Shown: positions 10,082 to 41,324 of the stretch, one piece after another
How the letters are laid out: each line of letters opens with the position of its first letter
Position numbering within the stretch: the first letter of the stretch is position 1
Origin: Bacilli bacterium
GTDB lineage: Bacteria > Bacillota_I > Bacilli_A > RFN20 > CAG-288
Direction of reading: 5' to 3'
NCBI GenBank assembly: GCA_022652945.1
Contig: JALCRV010000014.1
Location: 1-49,450 of the forward strand
DNA: 49,450 nt
Notes under the pieces: generated by a model
What the model saw: the letters and a program-made list of their open reading frames with translations, nothing else
The model's database searches: none
What the model was told of the DNA's origin: nothing
Translations under genes and position numbers: made by a program

Positions 10082-11377
10082 ATGATCAAAGATTTCAGTA
10101 AAGATGAGTATGACGAGTTTATCTCCCTCTTCTCTGTAAATAATGTTTGGCACTTGATTAAAAAAATGCTCTCAGAGGTTGATGCCCCATTTTTAGAGCA
10201 GGGTGAACGCCTGGCTTACATCGCCCTGCGTTTAGCTGAAAAGCAGAAGATCGATATGAAGAACACTCGGCACTTGGTCTTTTCCGCCTTATTCCATGAC
10301 ATCGGTCGAATCTGGGCTTCTTCTTCCGATCCCGAACTGACTGGGTTCGACTTCAAGAGTTCCTATGATCATGCTCTTTCTTCCTATTTGTTCCTCAAGT
10401 ACTTCTCCCCTTTAAAGGACTACTCCGATATCGTCTTATTTCAACACGGGCGGGCAGACAGGGAACAAAAGAATACTTACTACCGCTACGGGGTTAAGCT
10501 TAATGTCTGCGACCATGTCGATATGTGGAAGACACAAGGCAAGAGCAAGGATGAAATCATCGCTTTGCTGAAAGGCGGAGAAGGCAGATATTTCTATTCT
10601 AACGATGTCGACGATATGATTTCGCTATTGAACGAAACCAATATACTCGAGCATCTTTCGACCGACATCTGTCACCAATCTGTCGATGAATTCCTTTCCT
10701 CACTATATTTCCGAAGAGATGTAGTCCGGAATTATTTGTTTATGGTCACTTATTGTTTCGAGTTCTATAACGCCGAAACGATGTTCCACGCTAGGATGAC
10801 AGCTTCGCTCTGTTACCTTTTGGGTCGTTATCTCGATCTCGATCTTCATAATCTTTGCATTCTTTATACTGCCGGTCTTTTCGGCGATATCGGGAAAGTC
10901 CGGATTCCTCATGAAATTCTTGAAAAGCCTGGCAAACTGACCAGCGAAGAAACCGAGATGATGAAAAAGCATATCGATTGCACTAAGGAAATTCTCGAAG
11001 GATGTTTCAAGGATAAGGAAGTCATCACTGTGGCTTATGCTCATCATGAAAGAATCGATGGTTCCGGTTATCCTTTAGGCTTGAAGGGCGATCAACTCGA
11101 TATAAAGCAAAGAATTATCCAAGTAGCTGATATCGGAGCCGCTTTGATGGCGAAGAGAACTTATAAGGACGCTTATCCGATGGATAAGACAATTGAAGAG
11201 TTGGAAATCATGAAGAATGATGGCAAACTCGATGAAAAAATTGTTTCTTTATTCTCAGCCAATCAGGAAGAGATTTTTGCCTATTTGCAGAATCATCTTA
11301 ACCGAATGTTGCGCGACATGCAGGCTTTAAGAGCTGAAAGGCAAAGGCTCAAATTCGCTGATGCTTGGGAGAAGTAG
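10082..11377 (+). CDS. tandem HD / HD-GYP-like domain protein, second HD pair altered
   Basis: The 431-residue soluble protein has two HD-type domains. The N-terminal one looks complete: H72-D73 in LFHDIGR, H97, H122 in LFQHGR and D144 in NVCDHVD. The C-terminal one (about 230-375) has HD-GYP hallmarks: GKVRIPHEILEKPGKLTSEE, H297, HHERIDGSGYP (321-331) and VAD (D350). The eponymous histidine before D269 is glycine (LFGDIGK). HD-GYP proteins hydrolyse cyclic di-GMP with a metal centre built from this HD pair, so this domain may bind rather than cut its ligand, or use a different metal set. It is monocistronic with a GGAGG site and a strong terminator. The c-di-GMP-type riboswitch near 32250 makes a signalling role plausible. 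Confidence 0.85.
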   Translation: MIKDFSKDEYDEFISLFSVNNVWHLIKKMLSEVDAPFLEQGERLAYIALRLAEKQKIDMKNTRHLVFSALFHDIGRIWASSSDPELTGFDFKSSYDHALSSYLFLKYFSPLKDYSDIVLFQHGRADREQKNTYYRYGVKLNVCDHVDMWKTQGKSKDEIIALLKGGEGRYFYSNDVDDMISLLNETNILEHLSTDICHQSVDEFLSSLYFRRDVVRNYLFMVTYCFEFYNAETMFHARMTASLCYLLGRYLDLDLHNLCILYTAGLFGDIGKVRIPHEILEKPGKLTSEETEMMKKHIDCTKEILEGCFKDKEVITVAYAHHERIDGSGYPLGLKGDQLDIKQRIIQVADIGAALMAKRTYKDAYPMDKTIEELEIMKNDGKLDEKIVSLFSANQEEIFAYLQNHLNRMLRDMQALRAERQRLKFADAWEK

Positions 11378-21229: not shown

Positions 21230-21235
21230 TTAACT

Positions 21236-21352
21236 GTGCTTCAGGGTTGGGTGAAATTCCCTCTCGGCGGTAAACCCCGCGGGATTGTCGAGAAATCGAC
21301 GATCAGATATGGTGCGATTCCATAGGCGACAGTAAAGGCTGGATAAAAGCAA
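21236..21352 (+). ncRNA. FMN riboswitch (RFN element)
   Basis: The conserved blocks of the RFN aptamer appear in order: GCTTCAGGG, GGGTGAAATTCCC, CGGCGGTAAA, CCCGCG, GATATGGTGCGATTCCATA, GGCGACAGTAAAGGCTGGAT, and AGC closing P1. It senses FMN. Its position before a riboflavin transporter gene and a transcription terminator implies that high FMN stops transcription. Confidence 0.95.
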
Positions 21353-21382
21353 GCGCTCCTTCGTCTTTTGACGAAAGGATTT

Positions 21383-25104: not shown

Positions 25105-27045
25105 TCAATCAATTTCAGAATCGGTTTCTTCATCAATTAAAGCGGTTGTGAGGTCGGTGTAGATCTCATGGTATTCTTTTTCTCGGCCATTGCTGACTAT
25201 GTAAGATAAGCGCTTTTGCAGAGAAGCATCTTCTTTGATTAAATTGACGATCAAAGGATTGTACCGAGTGCCTTTCTGATTATCCAATTCCTTCAGCAAA
25301 TCGCCAAAGGATTTGCCCACTGAGTAATTCCTGCCTAATTTATCAGTCCCCGCATCCAAGGAATCCGCAATTGTGACAATATCGGTGAAAAGCCTGTATG
25401 GCGATTTCGTGTTGTCCTGATTTTCCGGATAACCTTTGCTGCCATCGTAAAATTTATGATGGAAGAAAGCTACATCAGCATATTTTTCCAAATCTTTGTT
25501 ATTGCGCAGCAGTTCATATCCCACTCTTGAATGAAGCTTGATGGTGGCAAATTCCGCATCGGTCAGTTTCCGACGTTGAAGGTTGATCAAATCCCAAAAG
25601 GGAGCCTTACCGATGTCGTGTAAGAAGGCGGCATCGCCGATATAATCGATGGCGGCTTTGAAATTATCTTTTTGAGAAGCATCTTTTGAATATATAGGTG
25701 TGTCCTTGAAGAAGTCAGGATTTGATTTTAAGGCGCTTTTAGCAATCGATACGGAAATTAATTGAACCATTTTTGAATGGAGAGCTGTGAAAGTCTGCTG
25801 ATGCAGGAAAAGCTCCTCGATAGCTTTTACAAACTCTTCGCCACCGTGGACAATCGGCAACATGTCATTCAGGTAGTCGCTGGTTACTTGAGACAAATCG
25901 GTGTTTTTGCCACTTTGGGGAATGGAAGACAAATAGGCGATTGTTTCATTGAAGATGCTAGAGATCTTCTCTTGGGAATACTTTGAATCACCATTCTCCA
26001 TCAAGTAGGAATAACAAAGGTCAATCCCGATTGTCAAAAAGTAGATAATTGCATTTGAGTTATAAAGACTTTTTTCCAAAGTTGAGTCTTTTCTTTGCAG
26101 AAAAAGATTCTCAAGTCGTAATTTGTATTCATTTGGTAAAATATGACCCAAGGAAACTGAACAATAAAGATAATGCGAGTAAATCATTAAATGATTAGGA
26201 TCTTGTAAATTATCATTTTGCTCCTTAAAGAACTCATAGCAAATTTTCAACAAGCGCCCCTTTGCTTCAATTTGCGACAAATCAGGAATGGGTAAATCCT
26301 TGTCATAGATTCTCCTTTTACCAAAGGTCATAAAAACATCGGTAATCACAATATATGAATTCAAAAGCATATTATCCATAAAAGCTTTGGTCTTATCAGT
26401 GATATAAGGGCTAACAAAGTCCACCCGTTTCTTGAACAAATTAAAAGCTGTTTCTAAGTCTAAATAATCGTATCGTCGTTTCATCAATTGATATTCCGCA
26501 TGACTGAGGAAGTCATTGAACATCATGGCGATAATTCTGAGTTGGGTATCCGTAGCATAACCTTTAAACCCATCGATAAAAGTCAGCCCATATTCGGCAG
26601 TCTTATATGATTCCTTGACCTTTTCCGCCCAGAGATATTTTGATTGAACCAGGGATAAAAAGTTCGTTAAGAAGATAATGCCTTCGTTGGAGACGTGGTT
26701 GTATTTATAATTGACTAAAATCACTTTTTCAACAAAATCATCCATCAGCAGAAAATCCAGATTGCCACCGTTATAAATTTTGTCAATCATGCTCATAAAA
26801 TCTGAGCATTGCTTTGGTGAAAGGGTAAAAGGGTTGGCGAAAAGCGGCTTAATTACCTCATCAATCATTTTGGTGTTGGAGATGTATTGCCCCCTGACCA
26901 AAGAAGACTTTGTGTGAAGGATAGCAATCCAAGCATCCTCACTTTCCTGTTTCTGATGGAGTTGATTTTCTAAATCATATCTTTTTTCGTCCAAGGAAAA
27001 ATAGTCTTGCAGAAACTGGGCCATTGACAGTTCTTGGGATGACAT
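25105..27045 (-). CDS. large HD-GYP-like domain protein
   Basis: I chose the ATG ending at 27045, because AAGGAGGA lies just upstream; the in-frame ATG 18 bases earlier would put that site inside the gene. The product has 646 residues. About 460 N-terminal residues are mostly helical, TPR-like in feel, but with no motif I recognise. The C-terminal domain has the HD-GYP pattern: LHDIGK (H476, D477), KLH (H505), FFHHKFYDGSKGYP (H529-H530; one residue more than the usual HHERxDGxGYP) and IADSLDAGTD. Unlike the HD-GYP-like protein at 10082, it keeps the full HD pair. Hydrolysis of a cyclic dinucleotide is the family expectation; the insertion in the GYP motif leaves the substrate open. It is followed downstream on the same strand by no other gene. 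Confidence 0.82.
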   Translation of the reverse strand: MSSQELSMAQFLQDYFSLDEKRYDLENQLHQKQESEDAWIAILHTKSSLVRGQYISNTKMIDEVIKPLFANPFTLSPKQCSDFMSMIDKIYNGGNLDFLLMDDFVEKVILVNYKYNHVSNEGIIFLTNFLSLVQSKYLWAEKVKESYKTAEYGLTFIDGFKGYATDTQLRIIAMMFNDFLSHAEYQLMKRRYDYLDLETAFNLFKKRVDFVSPYITDKTKAFMDNMLLNSYIVITDVFMTFGKRRIYDKDLPIPDLSQIEAKGRLLKICYEFFKEQNDNLQDPNHLMIYSHYLYCSVSLGHILPNEYKLRLENLFLQRKDSTLEKSLYNSNAIIYFLTIGIDLCYSYLMENGDSKYSQEKISSIFNETIAYLSSIPQSGKNTDLSQVTSDYLNDMLPIVHGGEEFVKAIEELFLHQQTFTALHSKMVQLISVSIAKSALKSNPDFFKDTPIYSKDASQKDNFKAAIDYIGDAAFLHDIGKAPFWDLINLQRRKLTDAEFATIKLHSRVGYELLRNNKDLEKYADVAFFHHKFYDGSKGYPENQDNTKSPYRLFTDIVTIADSLDAGTDKLGRNYSVGKSFGDLLKELDNQKGTRYNPLIVNLIKEDASLQKRLSYIVSNGREKEYHEIYTDLTTALIDEETDSEID

Positions 27046-27087
27046 TATTCTTCCTCCTTGCAAATCTAATCTTATTTGCTTAAAAGA

Positions 27088-29808: not shown

Positions 29809-29852
29809 TCACAGTTGCATTATGTTTTAATTCTGCTTAAGATAGTCATGTC

Positions 29853-29944
29853 GATCTTAGGGGAGCTCTGAATAAGGGCTGAGAGGCTGAATAAGCGACC
29901 CTATAACCTGATCTAGGCAATGCTAGCGAAGGGAAAAGAAAGAT
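29853..29944 (+). ncRNA. TPP riboswitch (THI element)
   Basis: The conserved TPP aptamer parts are present: GGGGAGCTC, GGGCTGAGAGG, CGACCCTATAACCTGATCT, and GCAATGCTAGCGAAGGGAA. It is followed by a terminator and by thiT, so high TPP should stop transcription of the transporter gene. Confidence 0.96.
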
Positions 29945-29966
29945 ATTTAATCCATATCGTCTTTTC

Positions 29967-32189: not shown

Positions 32190-32218
32190 TTGCTTGCTTT
32201 GAACTAATTAAGTATATT
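32190..32218 (+). promoter_or_regulatory. candidate promoter for the riboswitch-surface protein operon
   Basis: TTGCTT (32190-32195) and TATATT (32213-32218) are exactly 17 bases apart and end just before the riboswitch. Confidence 0.5.
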
Positions 32219-32221
32219 ATT

Positions 32222-32307
32222 TGTGCAAATGTTAATAGCAAAACCAAGGCAACTTGGCGGCGCAAAACTAAAGGGTCCTTAAGGGATAGCCAGTTGCCAA
32301 GTTGCTG
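32222..32307 (+). ncRNA. GEMM-I (cyclic di-GMP class I-like) riboswitch
   Basis: The conserved GEMM-I layout is present in order. AGCAAAACC is followed by a stem CCAAG-GCAA-CTTGG capped by a GNRA tetraloop (32244-32257). Then come CGCAAAACTAAAGGGTCC, the second hairpin region, and GGGATAGCCAGTTGCC, matching the family pattern GCAAACC / GACGCAAAGC / AGGGTCT / GCCAGTTGCCG. The base two before CAAA is A where GG is common in c-di-GMP binders, so the exact ligand (c-di-GMP or cGAMP) stays open. It lies 11 bases before the start of a surface-protein operon, a typical location in Firmicutes. Confidence 0.82.
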
Positions 32308-32317
32308 AAAAGGTTTT

Positions 32318-33244
32318 ATGAAAGCAAGTAAAGCAAAAGCTATTCTTTCCACATTGACCTGTCTTGTTGCTGTTAGCTTCATTATGGCTAGCGCGACTTT
32401 TGCTTGGTTTAATTTCAATATCACCAACAATCAATCGATTGTAGCCACCGCTGGCAACATTTCATTAACTGACTTTTCCGCTAACGCTTTAAAGTATGTT
32501 TATCCGACATACGGCGCTTCCTCTTCTTCCTCCTCTTCAACTTCTTCGGAAGGGGAACCGATGTACAACTATCAGGAAGATGGGACGGTTACGAGCTACG
32601 ATGTTTTGACTCAGGAAGTCAAAATGAATAAATATGATCCTTTCATCCTTTACCTCCGCGGGGAAAAGGTTGATGTTTTGAATACGAACATCGTTTTAAA
32701 ACTGTCATATTCTTGCAAGACTTACACGGATGCGACCATTTCCTTAAAAGCCCAACGTTTAGTTAACTGGCCTTCTTCTAGCAAACGGATCACAGATTAT
32801 CTCGATTACTGGGTCTCTTCTGTCGATTATTCTTCCTTGGCTTCCGTCACCTATAACGGAACAGTTTATAATTCCACAGATACCAATGGTGCACTTAATG
32901 TTCCTTTTTATGGCATGAAAGAAAATGAAAGACTATGCCATAACTCAACTGAGACCATCACCGACACGACTTCTCCCTTGTATTACAGGCATTTTTATGG
33001 TGATAGTTCGATAAATTCATTGACCTTAATGTCGACTGATTATTCTTATAGTTCAATGGTTGCAGGAAGCGTCTCCAACGCAACAGCGACCGGCGATGGT
33101 GGTTTTTCCATCACCGGTAATTTCTACTTGAATGTGGATTATAACCAGTCCACCTTGAATTCCTATTCCACCTCGCTTTCGGCGGATACCACGATTTCCT
33201 TAGGAATGGATTATTCTTTGGTCCTTGAGGCCATCCAGGATTGA
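32318..33244 (+). CDS. secreted or membrane-anchored surface protein, first gene of the riboswitch operon
   Basis: The 308-residue protein has a signal peptide (about residues 1-29, hydrophobic core ILSTLTCLVAVSFIMASATF) directly followed by AWFNFNITNNQSIVATAGN. This layout recalls the N-termini of TasA/camelysin-type matrix proteins, where the region after the signal begins with an aromatic-rich strand. A Ser-rich linker (about 69-78) follows, then a beta-rich, Tyr/Ser/Thr-rich domain of about 220 residues. I cannot name a family with confidence. Its start is preceded by AAAAGG immediately after the GEMM-I aptamer, so its translation or transcription is probably ligand-controlled. Its stop overlaps the next start codon (TGATG). 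Confidence 0.75.
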   Translation: MKASKAKAILSTLTCLVAVSFIMASATFAWFNFNITNNQSIVATAGNISLTDFSANALKYVYPTYGASSSSSSSTSSEGEPMYNYQEDGTVTSYDVLTQEVKMNKYDPFILYLRGEKVDVLNTNIVLKLSYSCKTYTDATISLKAQRLVNWPSSSKRITDYLDYWVSSVDYSSLASVTYNGTVYNSTDTNGALNVPFYGMKENERLCHNSTETITDTTSPLYYRHFYGDSSINSLTLMSTDYSYSSMVAGSVSNATATGDGGFSITGNFYLNVDYNQSTLNSYSTSLSADTTISLGMDYSLVLEAIQD

Positions 33245-36200
33245 TGAGTATGAAACAACATCGCTTATCAAAAGGATTGATTATCGGCCTGATTGCTGGA
33301 GTGAACGCCATATCTCTAGTTATTTTCCAAGCGTACATGGTTTTCCAGACCCAAAATTCGATTGATAACGGGAAAATCCCTGGCACCATCGGTCTAAGAG
33401 AATATTTCGATTCCGGAGATGGCTCTTCAACGGATCCTTATGTCATCACTAGGCCAAGGCATTTTTACAACCTATCAAGACTTCAGGCCCTAGGCGCTTT
33501 CAATTCTCAAAAATATTTCCAACTTGGCAAGACGGCTGCAATCGACGGCACTAACCATTTTTACGCTGATGATATAAATGACACCTCTTCAGCTTATCTT
33601 GATCTTACAGATTACAGTCAGACCATCGTTTCTATCGGGTCTTCTTCTACTCCTTTCTTTGGCGTCTTCGACGGGCAAGGCTTTACGATTAAAGGTCTTT
33701 CGGTTACTAGTGACCCCGAGGATATCGGAGTCTTCGGTTATATCGCCCCCAATGGCAAGGTAAAGAATGTCAATTTTTCCAATCTCACAGTAAACGATAA
33801 TGGTTACGGTGACTTCCAAAGAGAGTTCTACGAGAAGAGCATCGAGAAAAACGATGACCTTCATCTTCTTTCTTATACGGCGGGAGGAACTAGCCTGGCT
33901 TTTTCATCCACGGCTGTTTCCACGACCGATTTAAGCGGGACTTTTAATTTGGATGCTACGGGGATGAGTTCAATTATTTCTTATGCCAATATTTCCTACG
34001 CTATCAGATCGACTAACCCGACGATTTTAGTTCTTTCTGATGATAAACAATCGATTTCTATCGATACAGCAGGGCTTATTGGAACTGAAGGGGCCAGAAC
34101 GGCTTTTTATAATACTTCCGGCAGTCAGGTCTCGACGAGAATTTACGCGACAGCCACGATGATCAAAAATAATATCCAGTACGCGAAGATTATCGGGACT
34201 TGGACTGTAACTTTCGATAATGTCATCTCCGGGACTACCCATACCATTACGATGAATGTGACGAGGGATCGTGATGCTTCCGGGAGCACCTATGAACACA
34301 ATACGAATATCGGCTTTATCTGCGGACACTGCGATGGCTCGATGACCGATGATTATGTTTATTGCGGAAGTCTTAATCTTAATAAGACTACCAGCGTCGG
34401 CGGGGTCACTTATGTCAATCAGGCCGCCGAGACTGAAATGGGATTAATCGGGGAAATCGGTATTAATATTGATAACAATATCTCACCAAAGATCAATTAC
34501 GACGATGCTGGTGATACGGGCATCATCAACTTTACTAATATTTATAAAGACATTATTAATCTTGATGATACCGAATGGGATTCCTCACAGATTTCTACCG
34601 GCAGCAATACGTACACTGTATTTGTCATTAAATACCGCAAAGCCACCAACCATTATGACTCCTTCCTTCGAAAGAGAGTCGCCTCCACTGCCGATCAGAC
34701 CATCAATGGCCAGGATGATACCACCGTTGCGGCTCAGACGCAGACGGGAACTATTGCTCCTGTTACCGATACGACAATCGCCGATGTCGCTGTCACCAAC
34801 GCTAAGAACTCTATCGATTTCCAAGGGCAGAAAATTATTAAAGAAGATGCGGATTATTCTCGAGGCCTTGGTATCTTTAAACTGAACACTTCCGCCACCG
34901 CTTATTCGGAAAGCGATTACGCTTCCGGCATGGGTGACTTTACGATTAAATACGATGCTAATAATGTCTACTCTAACGTCTATTATTCGACGGCGGAATT
35001 CAATGCTACCCTTAATTCTTCTTTAACGCCGCAACAGTATTACAATTCCTTAGGCGGGGATGTGACCAGTTGGAAACCTGATACCTTGGATAAGGATTTC
35101 CGTATTAACCAAGGGACTTTTCTTCCGACTTCCTCCTTCTCTTCGATTTTCCTTTCCAATGGAGACAGCCTGACCCATGCTTCTTCCGGGCTGCTTTCAT
35201 CTTCAAAATTCGAGAAGAATTTCAATTATCTGCTTAAACTTAATTTGGAAGATCTTTCTTCCGCTAACTCCGGCAGTTCAGATAATTACTTCTACAACAC
35301 CGCTAATGGGTTCTTAAGGGACTATTTTACTTATAAGCTTCGTGATAAGAACGGGGAAACAATCGATAAAAGCTCATCGGATTTCGGCTTGATGATTAAA
35401 GAAAAGAACGGCTCTTCCTTCTTGAATACCACCTCTTTTTCCTCTTATTTGGGCTTAAGCCAGCAGCAGGGTGGCGTCATCAATGCGATGACTGTCAGCG
35501 ATACCGATAGCGAAGGCAATACGCAGACAGTGACCGTTCCCACCAAGACTATTGAATTTTCCGTTAAGAATGAATTTGGGGCTAATATTACTTTGATTGC
35601 TTCTTCCGATTCCGCTGAGGAAAGCCATGTCTGTATTTACGATAAGGCCATCACAACCTTCACGGATTCTGGAACCGGTCCGAAGAATTCCACCGGCTTA
35701 TATCCGTCTTATGCGATGTATATCCCGGCTAATACCACCGATGATTCTAGCCAAGCGAAGATGCCTTATTACTTCACTTATGATAATTCTTCTCATAATG
35801 TCACTTCGGCTTTAGCCTCCAAGCTTACTAATCACAGCTCTGAGAATCGTCTTTACGCCCATACTTTCTTCCTTCCGCAAGGGAATTACTATATCGGTTC
35901 TCCCGATGGCAATGAGAAGATTTATTATATGGCAGTCCAAGGCCAGAACGGTTTAGGTAACTTAGGTGGCAAGAAACAGATCTTCTCCGATAACGACGTC
36001 ATTTCTAACGTGGATTTTCTGCTTGATGATCCGGTTACTTCCGCGTTGAACAGGGCTTATGTCGACTTCCAAGCCTCATTCGATGCTTTACCTAACACGC
36101 TTACCGCTTCGATAAACGCTCAGACTTTGTCCTTAAGCTTTACGACGTCTTCGACTGCTTATTCATATTTGGTCTATAACTATTCTAAGGATATCAAGAC

Positions 36201-36273
36201 TAACGATAACGTGTACGTCAACGGCACTAGTTACAACAAGACTTATATAAAGTCAGCTAACTGGGTTGGTTAA
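33244..36273 (+). CDS. large surface protein with GLUG-like repeat segment
   Basis: I place the start at ATG 33244, which overlaps the previous stop in TGATG, not at the TTG three bases earlier; ATG 33250 is also possible. The product has about 1009 residues. It has an N-terminal hydrophobic anchor (LIIGLIAGVNAISLVIFQAYMVF), then TRPRHFYNLSRLQALG and a GLUG-like unit at about residues 130-185 (FFGVFDGQGFTIKGLSV, DIGVFGYIAPNGKVKNV). The rest is Ser/Thr/Asn/Tyr-rich with low charge, as in extracellular beta proteins. No sortase signal is seen. It is probably held at the membrane by its N-terminus and made together with its neighbours. Its function is not known; adhesion or matrix is inferred from context. 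Confidence 0.8.
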   Translation: MSMKQHRLSKGLIIGLIAGVNAISLVIFQAYMVFQTQNSIDNGKIPGTIGLREYFDSGDGSSTDPYVITRPRHFYNLSRLQALGAFNSQKYFQLGKTAAIDGTNHFYADDINDTSSAYLDLTDYSQTIVSIGSSSTPFFGVFDGQGFTIKGLSVTSDPEDIGVFGYIAPNGKVKNVNFSNLTVNDNGYGDFQREFYEKSIEKNDDLHLLSYTAGGTSLAFSSTAVSTTDLSGTFNLDATGMSSIISYANISYAIRSTNPTILVLSDDKQSISIDTAGLIGTEGARTAFYNTSGSQVSTRIYATATMIKNNIQYAKIIGTWTVTFDNVISGTTHTITMNVTRDRDASGSTYEHNTNIGFICGHCDGSMTDDYVYCGSLNLNKTTSVGGVTYVNQAAETEMGLIGEIGINIDNNISPKINYDDAGDTGIINFTNIYKDIINLDDTEWDSSQISTGSNTYTVFVIKYRKATNHYDSFLRKRVASTADQTINGQDDTTVAAQTQTGTIAPVTDTTIADVAVTNAKNSIDFQGQKIIKEDADYSRGLGIFKLNTSATAYSESDYASGMGDFTIKYDANNVYSNVYYSTAEFNATLNSSLTPQQYYNSLGGDVTSWKPDTLDKDFRINQGTFLPTSSFSSIFLSNGDSLTHASSGLLSSSKFEKNFNYLLKLNLEDLSSANSGSSDNYFYNTANGFLRDYFTYKLRDKNGETIDKSSSDFGLMIKEKNGSSFLNTTSFSSYLGLSQQQGGVINAMTVSDTDSEGNTQTVTVPTKTIEFSVKNEFGANITLIASSDSAEESHVCIYDKAITTFTDSGTGPKNSTGLYPSYAMYIPANTTDDSSQAKMPYYFTYDNSSHNVTSALASKLTNHSSENRLYAHTFFLPQGNYYIGSPDGNEKIYYMAVQGQNGLGNLGGKKQIFSDNDVISNVDFLLDDPVTSALNRAYVDFQASFDALPNTLTASINAQTLSLSFTTSSTAYSYLVYNYSKDIKTNDNVYVNGTSYNKTYIKSANWVG

Positions 36274-36283
36274 AGGAGGGGTT

Positions 36284-39200
36284 ATGGAAAAGAAAACGAA
36301 GAAGACAATCGGTATCATCGCTTTATCCTCTTTAGCCTGCGCTTTAATCGGCGGGATTATTTTCGCTTTGCGTCCGAGTGATAAAAAGACCGCTCCTTCT
36401 GTTTCAATCGATGATCAGTACCAGAGATTATTCGAGGGGAGAGAAGTCAAAAAAGCTAATAGTTTCGGGACGGAAGGGACTGACTATACCAGCGATTTAG
36501 TTTACCGTGTTAACGATACGACTTTACAAGCGGCGGTCTCGAAGACTGCCTCGGATGATACTTCGATTGTCATTCCTTATTCTTATTCCGATGGGACGAA
36601 GACTTATACGGTTACCGCTATCGATTATTCGGGGTTTGCTAATTGCCCCAATTTGACCTCGGTGACTTTCCAGACCTATAACGGGCAGTCGGGGGCGGCT
36701 AATATCACTTTGATGGATGCTCAATGTTTCGCTTCCTGCCCGAATTTAGTTAAGTTCAATTCTACAGTCCAAGGGCGTTTCACGATTCCTTCACAAATTA
36801 CCGCTATCCATTCGGCTTCCTTTATGAACTGCCAGTCGATGACGAGTTTAGTCGTCGATAAGACTGCGAATAATCTGGCCTCGATTGGGGATAATGCCTT
36901 TAACGGGTGTATCGCGTGGAATACTTCTTTATCTTTAAATAAGCATACCGCTGGCTTTACCATCGGGGAAGCGGCGTTTGCTAACTGCGTCAAATTGCCG
37001 CAGGCGATGTTGAGAACCGGTGTCACTTCCATCGGAGCTTACGCTTTTTATAATGATACTTCCTTGAAATTGGTCGGCATTCCTTCGACCTGCACCACGA
37101 TTGGAATCGAAGCCTTTAGAAGATGCGAATCGGCAACTGCCTACATCGGCTCTCCTTACCGCTATCAATCCGGTTGGCCTAATCAAGGCAGCCACGCTAC
37201 TGATGCAAATGATGAAATGACCGATTACACTTCTACTCAAATGACCGGCGGGACCTGCGTCGAAGGTGATTGGAATTACGCGAATGCTCAACATGCGATC
37301 AAAATCATCGTCAACAAGGATGATATTTCCATTTCGCCTGATTCGAACTTTATTTATTCGCTTACCCCGTATTCGATTACCGTGGGGAGCGTCACGAAGA
37401 CTTTATTCAGAATCACGATTATTCAGTATATCGGCACGGGTTCAGCTAGTTTAGTTGTGCCGGATAGCTGGGATATCGATGCCGGTGATTCGCTTTCCTG
37501 GCTTAATGATGCTGATGGTAACCCTGTGGGAGTCGTGACCGAAATCGCTTCGAATGCCTTCAACACGACGGAGCTCACTTCCTTGACTCTGCCTTCGACC
37601 ATGGAAAAAATCGACTCCTACGCCTTTAACGGTTCGACCGCTATTTCCTCTTTGACTCTAAGTGAAACTTACGACTCAACTAACGATGTCTTCACGAGCT
37701 TTTTAGCCTCCTATATCGATGGGACTTTAACTAATATTCCTGTCGGAACCTACGCGGTTGGGGCCACGGCTGGCAGCGATAATGATTTTGCTTTAACTGG
37801 TTTAGTGACAATTTCCGATTATGCTTTCGCTAATTCTTGTCAAGCTTTGACTAGCTTAGTAATCCCTCATACTGTCCAGACCATCGGAGTTGGGGCTTTT
37901 GCCGGATACGTGAATTCCATTTACAGTTCCGGTCTGCCTTACTTACGAACACTTTCTTTCAACATGTTCAAAAACCGCTCGTCATTCCTGATGAGAATCG
38001 GGGCTTATGCCTTCTATAAGATGGGCGAAAGCCTGGATGCGGCTTACTATGGAAAATGTGATCTTTTGTTACCAAAGACGATGGCAGGGACGAGCAGTGA
38101 CAACTACATTATCGGAGAATATGCTTTCTTCGATTCTTTGAACCTTGGCACTTTGGTGATGGGAGAGTTATCTAAATCTTCGACTACGACGGCGGGATAC
38201 ACGCATAATAACCTGCTCACTAATGTCTTTAATTACTGCTCCTATCTGAAATGGGCTTATTTAGGTAATGGGATTTATCAAGTCGGTAACTCGGCTTTTG
38301 CTAACTGCACGAGCATGGATTGGCTTTATATCGCTGGCACGGTTGGTTCTTCTGCTTCCAGAGTTGACTCTTCCGTCATCACTGGCAATCTCCACTGTGT
38401 CGTTTACTGTGGAGCCAGCGGCACCAATTTATCGAGTAAGTTTTCGCTAGGTGATCAAGTGATTTATTCCGGAAGTGATGATAAGCAACATTCAAAATCC
38501 AATAAATTTACTTATGCTCCCGTCTACTATGGCATCTACGGGATGAAAGGCATTACCGATGTCACTACCTGGGGTGCTTATTATATTTATACTTATGACG
38601 GTAATCTCGACACGCCTAATGAAGGGGTCCAGATGTATTACACCACCAATGCCAATGCTTGGACTTTGACAAAGGGTCTTTCGTATGCGGGTTCAATCAC
38701 ATCGGATGTCAGCGGATTAGGGCACAATATCACCATCATCGGTGCTAAGTCATTTTACCGAGTGACGAATATTACAGGCTTAGTCGTAACTAATACCGTG
38801 ACAACGATTCAAGAATATGCTTTCTGCTACGCCACCAACTTTGCCACCTTCGGCATTTCCGGCTCTTTAACTACTTGTCCGGTTACTTTAACGACGATTG
38901 CTCAATATGCGTTTACTTTCTCAGGTCTTACCGCATTGACTATCGATGCGGCAATCACCACCTTGGGGACTTCGACTGATATAGGGAATTGTTTCTTCGG
39001 TTGTCTCTCCTTGAATGATCTAAATATCAATACGGCTTCTGGCCAGGCCAGCAATGCTACCTTCTATTGTGACAATGATTCAACAATCGGTGCTTTATAC
39101 ACCACCTCTGATGGTACTTCATTTAATTTATGCATCATCACCGGTTCCGCTACCGGGCATAATAGCGGCAGTACAGCGGAAGGGACCTATACTATAAAAA

Positions 39201-41260
39201 GCGGTACCCTGGTAATTAACTCCTACTGTGTTTTGACTTGTCGCTTAAGTGCAATTATCATTCCTTCTTCGGTGACGACGATTTCTGATTATGCCTTCCA
39301 TATGTTCACCCTTGATCCGGGTGGTCCGACGACAAACGGGGCTAATTGCAACGCGATTATGACTCCGACTTTGACTTCGATTACTTTCGCTGATAAGACC
39401 ACTTCTAATTGTAATTCGATTGGAATTGGTGCTTTTGCTTACCAGACCGCTCTGACCACCCTTGAACTGCCTGATAAACCGGGGAGCACGGTCGTCTTAA
39501 AAGACTACGCTTTCCGTTGCTGTGCTTATCTGCCTTCGTTAACGTTCCCGACTAACGCTAGAATCGATAATGAAACCACCGACACTGATAATTACTATAA
39601 ACTTTCCGGCTATCAGTTCGACCGTTGCTACCGGTTGCAGACCGTGACCATTCCTTCCTCCATTAACTATCTGGGCCGAACGGTTTTCTGGGGCTGTGAT
39701 TTACTGGAAACTGTCAATTGGACTAACATTAAATACATCGATCAGGAGGCATTCTTAGGTTGCCCGAGCCTGGCGACGATTCCGGCCTTTTCGGCCTCTT
39801 TAACATATATAGGCTATAGGGCTTTCTATAACGATACTAAATTAGCGGCTGTAGACTTCTCCGCCTGCACCAGTTTAGCTACGATCGGCTCCGAGGCTTT
39901 CTCGGGCTGCTCGACTTTGGCGAGCCTAGATTTATCTAACTGCACATCCTTAACCGGCGCTACTTCCATTGGAACCACCGCTTTCAATGGATGCAGCGGG
40001 CTAACAAGCGTAACCTATGCCCCTAACGTCACTGCGGTCAATGACAATGTGTTTAAAGGCTGCACGTCTTTAGTGACTTTCACCGGCTCGAGCAATCTAA
40101 CTGCTATCAACACCTCCGCTTTTGAAAATGACAGTAAAATGACAACGGTAAACAGCATCAGCAATGTAAGTTCAATCGGCAACTACGCTTTTAAGAACTG
40201 CACTGTCTTAGCGACTCTTAATAGTGTCAGCAATGTGGAGACAATCGGGACTGAGGCCTTTAATGCTTGCCGTGGGTTAACTAGTTTAACTGACTTCACA
40301 AGTCTGGTATCGATCGGAAGCAGTGCATTTAATAATTGCAGCAATCTGACTCTCTTTGCTTTCCCGACTTCTTTAACGACAATCGATTCTTCCGCTTTCC
40401 AAAACTGCACTAGCTTAGTCGAGACTACTCTTAACAGCAGTAAGCTTGTTATTCCTAATTCTGTGACTTCCATCGGTGCCTCAGCTTTCTATAATTGCCA
40501 GTCTTTGCTAGATGTCCAGTATAGCAGCGGACTGACTTCGATTCCGGATAGCTGCTTCTACACTGATAAAAAGATGACGACGTTCCGCTTTAACTCGACT
40601 TCTATTACTTCTATTGGCGCCCAGGCTTTCCAAGGCTGCTCAGTCCTCGCTAATAATACGGGTTCTGGTACTGTTTTCACTCTCCCTAATTCGGTGACTT
40701 CGATCGGGACTAAATGTTTCAACGGCTGCAGCGCCTTTATTACTGTTAACATCGGCTCCACGGCTGGAGGTTCTCAGTTAGGAGGAATTCCTAGTAATGC
40801 TTTCCAAGGTTGCAACAAGATGACCACCTTCATTTTCAATACGGGGTCTTCTTATATGACAACGATTGGCACTTATGCCTTCGGTGGCTGTTATGCCTTA
40901 ACTAATTCCGGGACTTCAAAGCTGAGCTCGGGAGCGGTTTGCTTCTCTTTGCCTGATTCAGTTACGACCATCGCTGAATATGCCTTCAATAATTGCACCA
41001 ACATTCTGAATTTCTATTTCGGCAGCGGCATCGCTTCCTTAGGCCAAAAGATCATTGGCAATAATACCAAAGTCACGATTTATATCAACCGCTCTTACGG
41101 CCAAGTCACTTCGTATATGAACTCGGCGGCCTTCAACACGCTTTGGTATAATGCCAGACCTTATTATTGCTCCTCGAATAGCGGCAATAAGCCGACCGGT
41201 TGCAGCGGTTATTATGCCACTAATGCTAGCGGTCTTATTACTGGCACGACGGCAGGGTAG
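36284..41260 (+). CDS. giant BspA-type leucine-rich-repeat (LRR_5) surface protein
   Basis: AAAGGAGGGG stands directly before ATG 36284; an in-frame TTG at 36266 would put that site within the gene, so it was not used. The product has 1658 residues. A hydrophobic anchor lies at about residues 8-31 (IGIIALSSLACALIGGIIFAL). Most of the remainder is built from LRR_5 repeats of the form LTSIGxxAFxNCxxLTSVxxP, which become very regular after about residue 1180. BspA-like proteins bind fibronectin, fibrinogen or other cells and are common in gut and oral bacteria. The last 50 residues are repeat-free (YYCSSNSGNKPTGCSGYY). No LPxTG motif is visible. It is the last gene of the operon. Confidence 0.92.
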   Translation: MEKKTKKTIGIIALSSLACALIGGIIFALRPSDKKTAPSVSIDDQYQRLFEGREVKKANSFGTEGTDYTSDLVYRVNDTTLQAAVSKTASDDTSIVIPYSYSDGTKTYTVTAIDYSGFANCPNLTSVTFQTYNGQSGAANITLMDAQCFASCPNLVKFNSTVQGRFTIPSQITAIHSASFMNCQSMTSLVVDKTANNLASIGDNAFNGCIAWNTSLSLNKHTAGFTIGEAAFANCVKLPQAMLRTGVTSIGAYAFYNDTSLKLVGIPSTCTTIGIEAFRRCESATAYIGSPYRYQSGWPNQGSHATDANDEMTDYTSTQMTGGTCVEGDWNYANAQHAIKIIVNKDDISISPDSNFIYSLTPYSITVGSVTKTLFRITIIQYIGTGSASLVVPDSWDIDAGDSLSWLNDADGNPVGVVTEIASNAFNTTELTSLTLPSTMEKIDSYAFNGSTAISSLTLSETYDSTNDVFTSFLASYIDGTLTNIPVGTYAVGATAGSDNDFALTGLVTISDYAFANSCQALTSLVIPHTVQTIGVGAFAGYVNSIYSSGLPYLRTLSFNMFKNRSSFLMRIGAYAFYKMGESLDAAYYGKCDLLLPKTMAGTSSDNYIIGEYAFFDSLNLGTLVMGELSKSSTTTAGYTHNNLLTNVFNYCSYLKWAYLGNGIYQVGNSAFANCTSMDWLYIAGTVGSSASRVDSSVITGNLHCVVYCGASGTNLSSKFSLGDQVIYSGSDDKQHSKSNKFTYAPVYYGIYGMKGITDVTTWGAYYIYTYDGNLDTPNEGVQMYYTTNANAWTLTKGLSYAGSITSDVSGLGHNITIIGAKSFYRVTNITGLVVTNTVTTIQEYAFCYATNFATFGISGSLTTCPVTLTTIAQYAFTFSGLTALTIDAAITTLGTSTDIGNCFFGCLSLNDLNINTASGQASNATFYCDNDSTIGALYTTSDGTSFNLCIITGSATGHNSGSTAEGTYTIKSGTLVINSYCVLTCRLSAIIIPSSVTTISDYAFHMFTLDPGGPTTNGANCNAIMTPTLTSITFADKTTSNCNSIGIGAFAYQTALTTLELPDKPGSTVVLKDYAFRCCAYLPSLTFPTNARIDNETTDTDNYYKLSGYQFDRCYRLQTVTIPSSINYLGRTVFWGCDLLETVNWTNIKYIDQEAFLGCPSLATIPAFSASLTYIGYRAFYNDTKLAAVDFSACTSLATIGSEAFSGCSTLASLDLSNCTSLTGATSIGTTAFNGCSGLTSVTYAPNVTAVNDNVFKGCTSLVTFTGSSNLTAINTSAFENDSKMTTVNSISNVSSIGNYAFKNCTVLATLNSVSNVETIGTEAFNACRGLTSLTDFTSLVSIGSSAFNNCSNLTLFAFPTSLTTIDSSAFQNCTSLVETTLNSSKLVIPNSVTSIGASAFYNCQSLLDVQYSSGLTSIPDSCFYTDKKMTTFRFNSTSITSIGAQAFQGCSVLANNTGSGTVFTLPNSVTSIGTKCFNGCSAFITVNIGSTAGGSQLGGIPSNAFQGCNKMTTFIFNTGSSYMTTIGTYAFGGCYALTNSGTSKLSSGAVCFSLPDSVTTIAEYAFNNCTNILNFYFGSGIASLGQKIIGNNTKVTIYINRSYGQVTSYMNSAAFNTLWYNARPYYCSSNSGNKPTGCSGYYATNASGLITGTTAG

Positions 41261-41288
41261 AGAAAAGAGTAAAACCCATCAGCAATCA

Positions 41289-41324
41289 GAGCACCTTTTA
41301 ATGAGAAAGGTGCTCTTTATTTTA
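41289..41324 (+). terminator. intrinsic terminator of the surface-protein operon
   Basis: GAGCACCTTT and AAAGGTGCTC form a 10-bp stem, followed by TTTATTTTA, 28 bases after the stop codon. Confidence 0.85.

Follow-up and report, generated by a model that had tools for sequence, protein, structure and literature searches.

A c-di-GMP-I riboswitch before an operon of predicted exported proteins, and a probable order-wide ON regulon for SipW-leader surface proteins in uncultured Bacilli

We found that a c-di-GMP-I riboswitch heads a three-gene operon for probably exported proteins in a 49,450-nucleotide stretch of Bacilli DNA (the window, meaning the whole stretch analysed), and that switches of the same class recur before related genes in other genomes of the order. 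Our preferred reading, which we hold with reasonable though far from complete confidence, is that the locus belongs to an order-wide c-di-GMP ON regulon for surface or matrix proteins with SipW-type leaders. At low c-di-GMP the leader would adopt a long hairpin, at the expense of the aptamer and with the ORF1 ribosome-binding site paired; at high c-di-GMP the aptamer would form and free the leader, allowing translation of ORF1 and of the coupled ORF2 and ORF3. Such an ON switch would operate on translation at the window and through terminators in most relatives. ORF1, exported via its SipW-type leader, may form or nucleate a surface or matrix structure, with ORF2 (a GLUG-like giant) and ORF3 (a leucine-rich repeat protein) as partners exported with it that contribute adhesion or bulk. 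The leaders would be cut by a SipW-type signal peptidase that other riboswitch operons of this genome encode, and negative feedback would come from an EAL phosphodiesterase likewise under riboswitch control.

An earlier note on this DNA had proposed a GEMM-I type riboswitch, and the covariance-model search bore this out: cmscan over the whole window gave RF01051 (E 8e-8) as the sole c-di-GMP-I match. The elements of the locus are:

32227-32301, + strand: c-di-GMP-I (GEMM-I) riboswitch aptamer, RF01051, 53.8 bits against a gathering score of 35
32241-32245 with 32312-32316, + strand: anti-Shine-Dalgarno pairing (AAACC with GGUUU) of the ligand-free fold, predicted by folding only
32248-32261 with 32293-32306, + strand: predicted 14-bp anti-aptamer helix, built from aptamer strands and excluding the aptamer
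32318-33244, + strand: ORF1, 308 aa, N-terminal segment ending SATFAWF and resembling a SipW-type leader
33244 or 33250 to 36273, + strand: ORF2, 1009 aa (ATG 33244) or 1007 aa (ATG 33250), N-terminal hydrophobic segment, motif YFDSGDGSSTDPYVITRPRHFYNLSRLQALG, GLUG-like domain
36284-41260, + strand: ORF3, 1658 aa, N-terminal hydrophobic segment, BspA-type leucine-rich repeats
41288-41316, + strand: intrinsic terminator of the operon, 12 bp followed by TTATTTTATT

The aptamer has a GNRA tetraloop (GCAA, 32249-32252) and an A at RF01051 model position 38, the equivalent of A47 in Vc2. At 32237, corresponding to Vc2 position 20, where G (G20) is the criterion for c-di-GMP specificity, it carries A (A20). 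One detail of the earlier description had to be corrected: the ORF1 start codon (ATG 32318) lies 16 nt past the end of the Rfam match and not 11 nt from the aptamer. The candidate promoter attributed to the riboswitch itself did not stand out, the promoter scan yielding 19 promoter-like sites against 19.0 ± 4.7 in shuffled sequence. The window also holds an FMN riboswitch (21234-21358, + strand) and a TPP riboswitch (29849-29952, + strand), both above gathering, the latter upstream of a ThiT transporter gene.

The description of three coupled genes with N-terminal export or anchor signals agrees with what we see. The genes lie compactly between 32318 and 41260, the start of ORF2 overlaps the stop of ORF1, and the ORF3 start codon follows 10 bases past ORF2 with AAAGGAGG directly upstream; each product begins with a hydrophobic segment, and the operon does end in a strong hairpin terminator. 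ORF3 matches PF13306 in 14 stretches (491.5 bits), in keeping with its designation as a BspA-type protein. The operon probably encodes an exported surface or matrix system. To this extent the suggestion of a new adhesion or matrix system is supported, resting on a genuine GEMM-I switch and one compact operon; membership of ORF1 in TasA/camelysin, as opposed to a likeness of its leader motif, is not supported.

ORF1 matched no Pfam or NCBIfam family, TasA/camelysin (peptidase M73) included, so that what survives of its supposed likeness to these proteins is the leader motif. The SipW-type leader model TIGR04088 was matched by one of 34 ORF1 relatives, and then only at E 0.65, with the motif xA|WF present. 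In B. subtilis, TasA is cut by SipW and has Phe at P2' of the cleavage site (PMC10269814); a cut at A|WF, which in ORF1 would fall after A29, would likewise leave Phe at P2'. ORF1 belongs to a large superfamily with what we call AWF leaders, its profile matching about 120 proteins among the retrieved loci after three rounds. Of 215 ORFs lying no more than 4 kb downstream of a switch, 112 have a membrane segment ending in A-W/Y-F/Y/L/I, compared with 40 of the 419 ORFs from the rest of the same contigs; in sequence these segments resemble the TasA/SipW leader. The AlphaFold model of ORF1 was of low confidence (pLDDT 33 from the single sequence, 49.5 with 34 relatives) and a Foldseek search with the latter gave no significant PDB match; we therefore make no claim on its fold.

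No Pfam or NCBIfam model matched ORF2 either. Its family shares the N-terminal block YFxxGxGTxxDPYxIxxPxHLYNLxWLQYLG, and its profile matched PDB entry 3n6z, a GLUG-containing putative IgA1 peptidase, over about 100 residues of the N-terminal domain (E 1.4e-8), in line with the earlier label 'GLUG-like'; the match is confined to those residues, and ORF2 itself carries no evidence of a peptidase. GLUG we take to be the name of the domain in 3n6z. Giant frames of 5,000-6,700 aa elsewhere in the class, outside this order (e.g. G502:C2, G331:C1, G445:C1), match the GLUG-like middle of the ORF2 profile weakly at several places.

The link between this family and the riboswitch extends across the order. 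At least one RF01051 switch occurs in 123 of its 279 genomes, and a strong ORF2-family match in 96, of which 91 also have the switch; 32 genomes have a switch without the family and 151 have neither (p 5e-39, not corrected for kinship). A listed switch lies no more than 6 kb upstream of at least 46 of the 64 best-matching ORF2 genes, which is a lower bound. Roughly one in three of the related genomes searched shows the combination of switch and protein, with two further cases (G510, G607) in another order. Genomes G081, G233 and G238 have strong ORF2-family genes and no RF01051 match, for which loss, incompleteness or other control are possible; in G607, two aptamers (C40, 9559-9638 and 9649-9727) lie 10 bases apart and possibly form a tandem riboswitch. 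The three-gene form with the leucine-rich repeat protein appeared only in the source genome and in G129, from another family of the order. Comparison of synteny, as the earlier note had advised, revealed in G129 (locus L193) a switch followed by two AWF genes, ORF2 and the repeat protein, and in the source genome a paralogue of the window operon (L033, contig C10), headed by the second of two switches, one G20 and one A20, that lie 1.8 kb apart; another ORF2-repeat protein pair follows this paralogue, so that besides the window L033 holds two such pairs.

The source genome (G000, 2.09 Mb) has six RF01051 switches, and others of these precede further genes of the proposed system. At locus L034, two minus-strand switches 1.6 kb apart (C1:123233-123313 and 121564-121646), of which one is G20 and the other A20, flank a gene for a 354-aa exported protein, upstream of an operon whose products are an exported protein of 153 aa and a SipW signal peptidase (L034:14446-14985; NF046067, E 5e-24; TIGR02228, the archaeal/ER-type signal peptidase model, also above cut-off). 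A further switch (L032) heads an operon for AWY proteins, an ATPase-like protein, a SipW-like protein and an EAL phosphodiesterase. The placing of a phosphodiesterase under the riboswitch suggests negative feedback; c-di-GMP riboswitches rarely control c-di-GMP enzymes, according to a review (PMC6366702). The genome has 12 GGDEF and five EAL matches; of the first 59 relatives examined, 12 carry the riboswitch, and every one of these encodes GGDEF. In the window itself, 10082-11377 (+ strand) and 25105-27063 (- strand) match HD-type c-di-GMP phosphodiesterases of the NosR family (E 2e-26 and 1e-9).

Across the order, the aptamer's 3' strand doubles as the 5' arm of an intrinsic terminator in 54 of the 81 switches with sequence context, where shuffling would give 3.8; this is an ON design. 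At the window, the fold constrained to contain the aptamer is 12.6 kcal/mol dearer than the free fold of the leader. When the 34-nt 3' flank was shuffled 500 times, a gap at least this large arose only 4 times (mean 5.6), so the competing fold is unlikely to be accidental. With such a gap the window switch would have to act co-transcriptionally, a point against our preferred reading. In the free fold, the anti-Shine-Dalgarno pairing covers the GG of the ORF1 Shine-Dalgarno sequence (AAGG, 32310-32313), and the pairing of its first G falls from 0.98 to 0.10 when the aptamer is imposed. The second G stays paired, in a weak hairpin, even then, and for this reason we say only that the window switch looks like an ON switch, probably acting on translation, as judged from folding. 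This sequestration was absent from the paralogous leader of the same genome that was folded. An OFF switch was considered as the main reading and rejected, given that the window leader has no terminator separate from the aptamer and that the terminator arm in the order is usually the aptamer strand; it counts against an ON reading here that all functional class I switches of C. difficile are OFF. That the window riboswitch is degenerate or has no control of the operon seems very improbable to us. In C. difficile 11 of 16 c-di-GMP riboswitches are functional, and both A20 and the strong competing fold could be taken as signs of decay, yet the aptamer core has been kept, one of its pairs shows a compensatory C-G swap in the paralogous G20 switch at C1:123233, the expression platform pairs beyond chance, and ON terminators occur order-wide.

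The identity of the ligand turns on position 20. We mapped Vc2 G20 to RF01051 consensus position 11 by its identical 27-nt spacing to position 38, and G11/A38 of Bc1 correspond to G20/A47 of Vc2 (PMC11218506). A20 marks the cGAMP-sensing GEMM-Ib RNAs, and the change A20G turns Gmet_0970 from cGAMP to c-di-GMP (PMC6456294). Since A20 is found in the window and in 46 of the 81 switches of the order, and the source genome mixes both types (A20 at C8, C10b, C1a and the window, G20 at C10a and C1b), it may be that A20 switches sense 3',3'-cGAMP, or cGAMP together with c-di-GMP, as a second channel beside the G20 switches. We think this unlikely. The Ser typical of Hypr enzymes was in none of the GGDEF domains read, all 11 intact domains of the source genome having Asp, and no SMODS cGAMP synthase (PF18144, the one CD-NTase family covered by the search) was found there. 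Moreover, sister orthologous operons of a single genus differ, G20 in G230 and A20 in G232 (support 100/99), as if the position were interchangeable; beyond this pair, the 17 rows compared with the phylogeny, two of them G20, are too few to link position 20 to descent. The lack of a detected synthase, the canonical GGDEF domains and the seemingly interchangeable position together lead us to favour c-di-GMP as the likeliest ligand of the window aptamer, despite A20, with cGAMP or dual sensing as the alternatives. More speculative still, and in our view quite improbable, is an order with two full channels, in which G20 switches would read c-di-GMP and A20 switches cGAMP from an unrecognised synthase, jointly timing SipW-dependent matrix assembly. 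The Geobacter GEMM-Ib riboswitches share with the window A20 and, in pilM, a comparable ON design with an aptamer strand within the terminator (PMC9262584), whereas here no Hypr GGDEF or SMODS synthase was found in the genome and G20 and A20 switches are mixed.

The locus could also be no more than a new member of the c-di-GMP-I adhesin operons familiar from Bacillus and Clostridia, with surface proteins that diverge fast. Known targets of such riboswitches include Cap in B. thuringiensis (Bc2, an ON switch) and sortase-dependent proteins in C. difficile, and Bc2/Cap is indeed similar in its aptamer family, in its ON switch before a surface protein and in its Gram-positive host. We nonetheless regard this as a fairly unlikely account: the superfamily of AWF-leader and GLUG-like giant genes recurs behind the switch across families and orders together with co-regulated SipW and EAL, the window differs from Bc2/Cap in A20 and in its probable translational read-out, and we found no description of such a system in the open-licence literature. 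Nor did we find there a paper joining c-di-GMP riboswitch, TasA and SipW, though papers naming fewer of these could have escaped the search. The SipW-TasA/TapA system of Bacillus and BsaA-SipW of Clostridium perfringens resemble the present one in a leader, putative here, with an aromatic residue at P2', in the SipW-type peptidase gene and in a proposed matrix protein; unlike them, it has no detectable TasA/camelysin homology, is linked to a riboswitch and has giant GLUG-like and leucine-rich repeat partners. Riboswitch class, SipW type and repeats are of known kinds; what appears to be new is the two families, AWF and ORF2, and the way they are coupled.

If the order-wide ON regulon is real, c-di-GMP would be tied by riboswitch directly to SipW-type secretion and to a very large superfamily of unannotated exported proteins, in uncultured bacteria with small genomes. 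The combination of riboswitch, AWF leader and ORF2 family would supply an annotation rule for many hypothetical proteins, and the natural series of A20 and G20 aptamers, sister orthologues included, offers direct test material for ligand specificity. Our data would then point to a widely shared, previously undescribed route to a surface coat or biofilm matrix.
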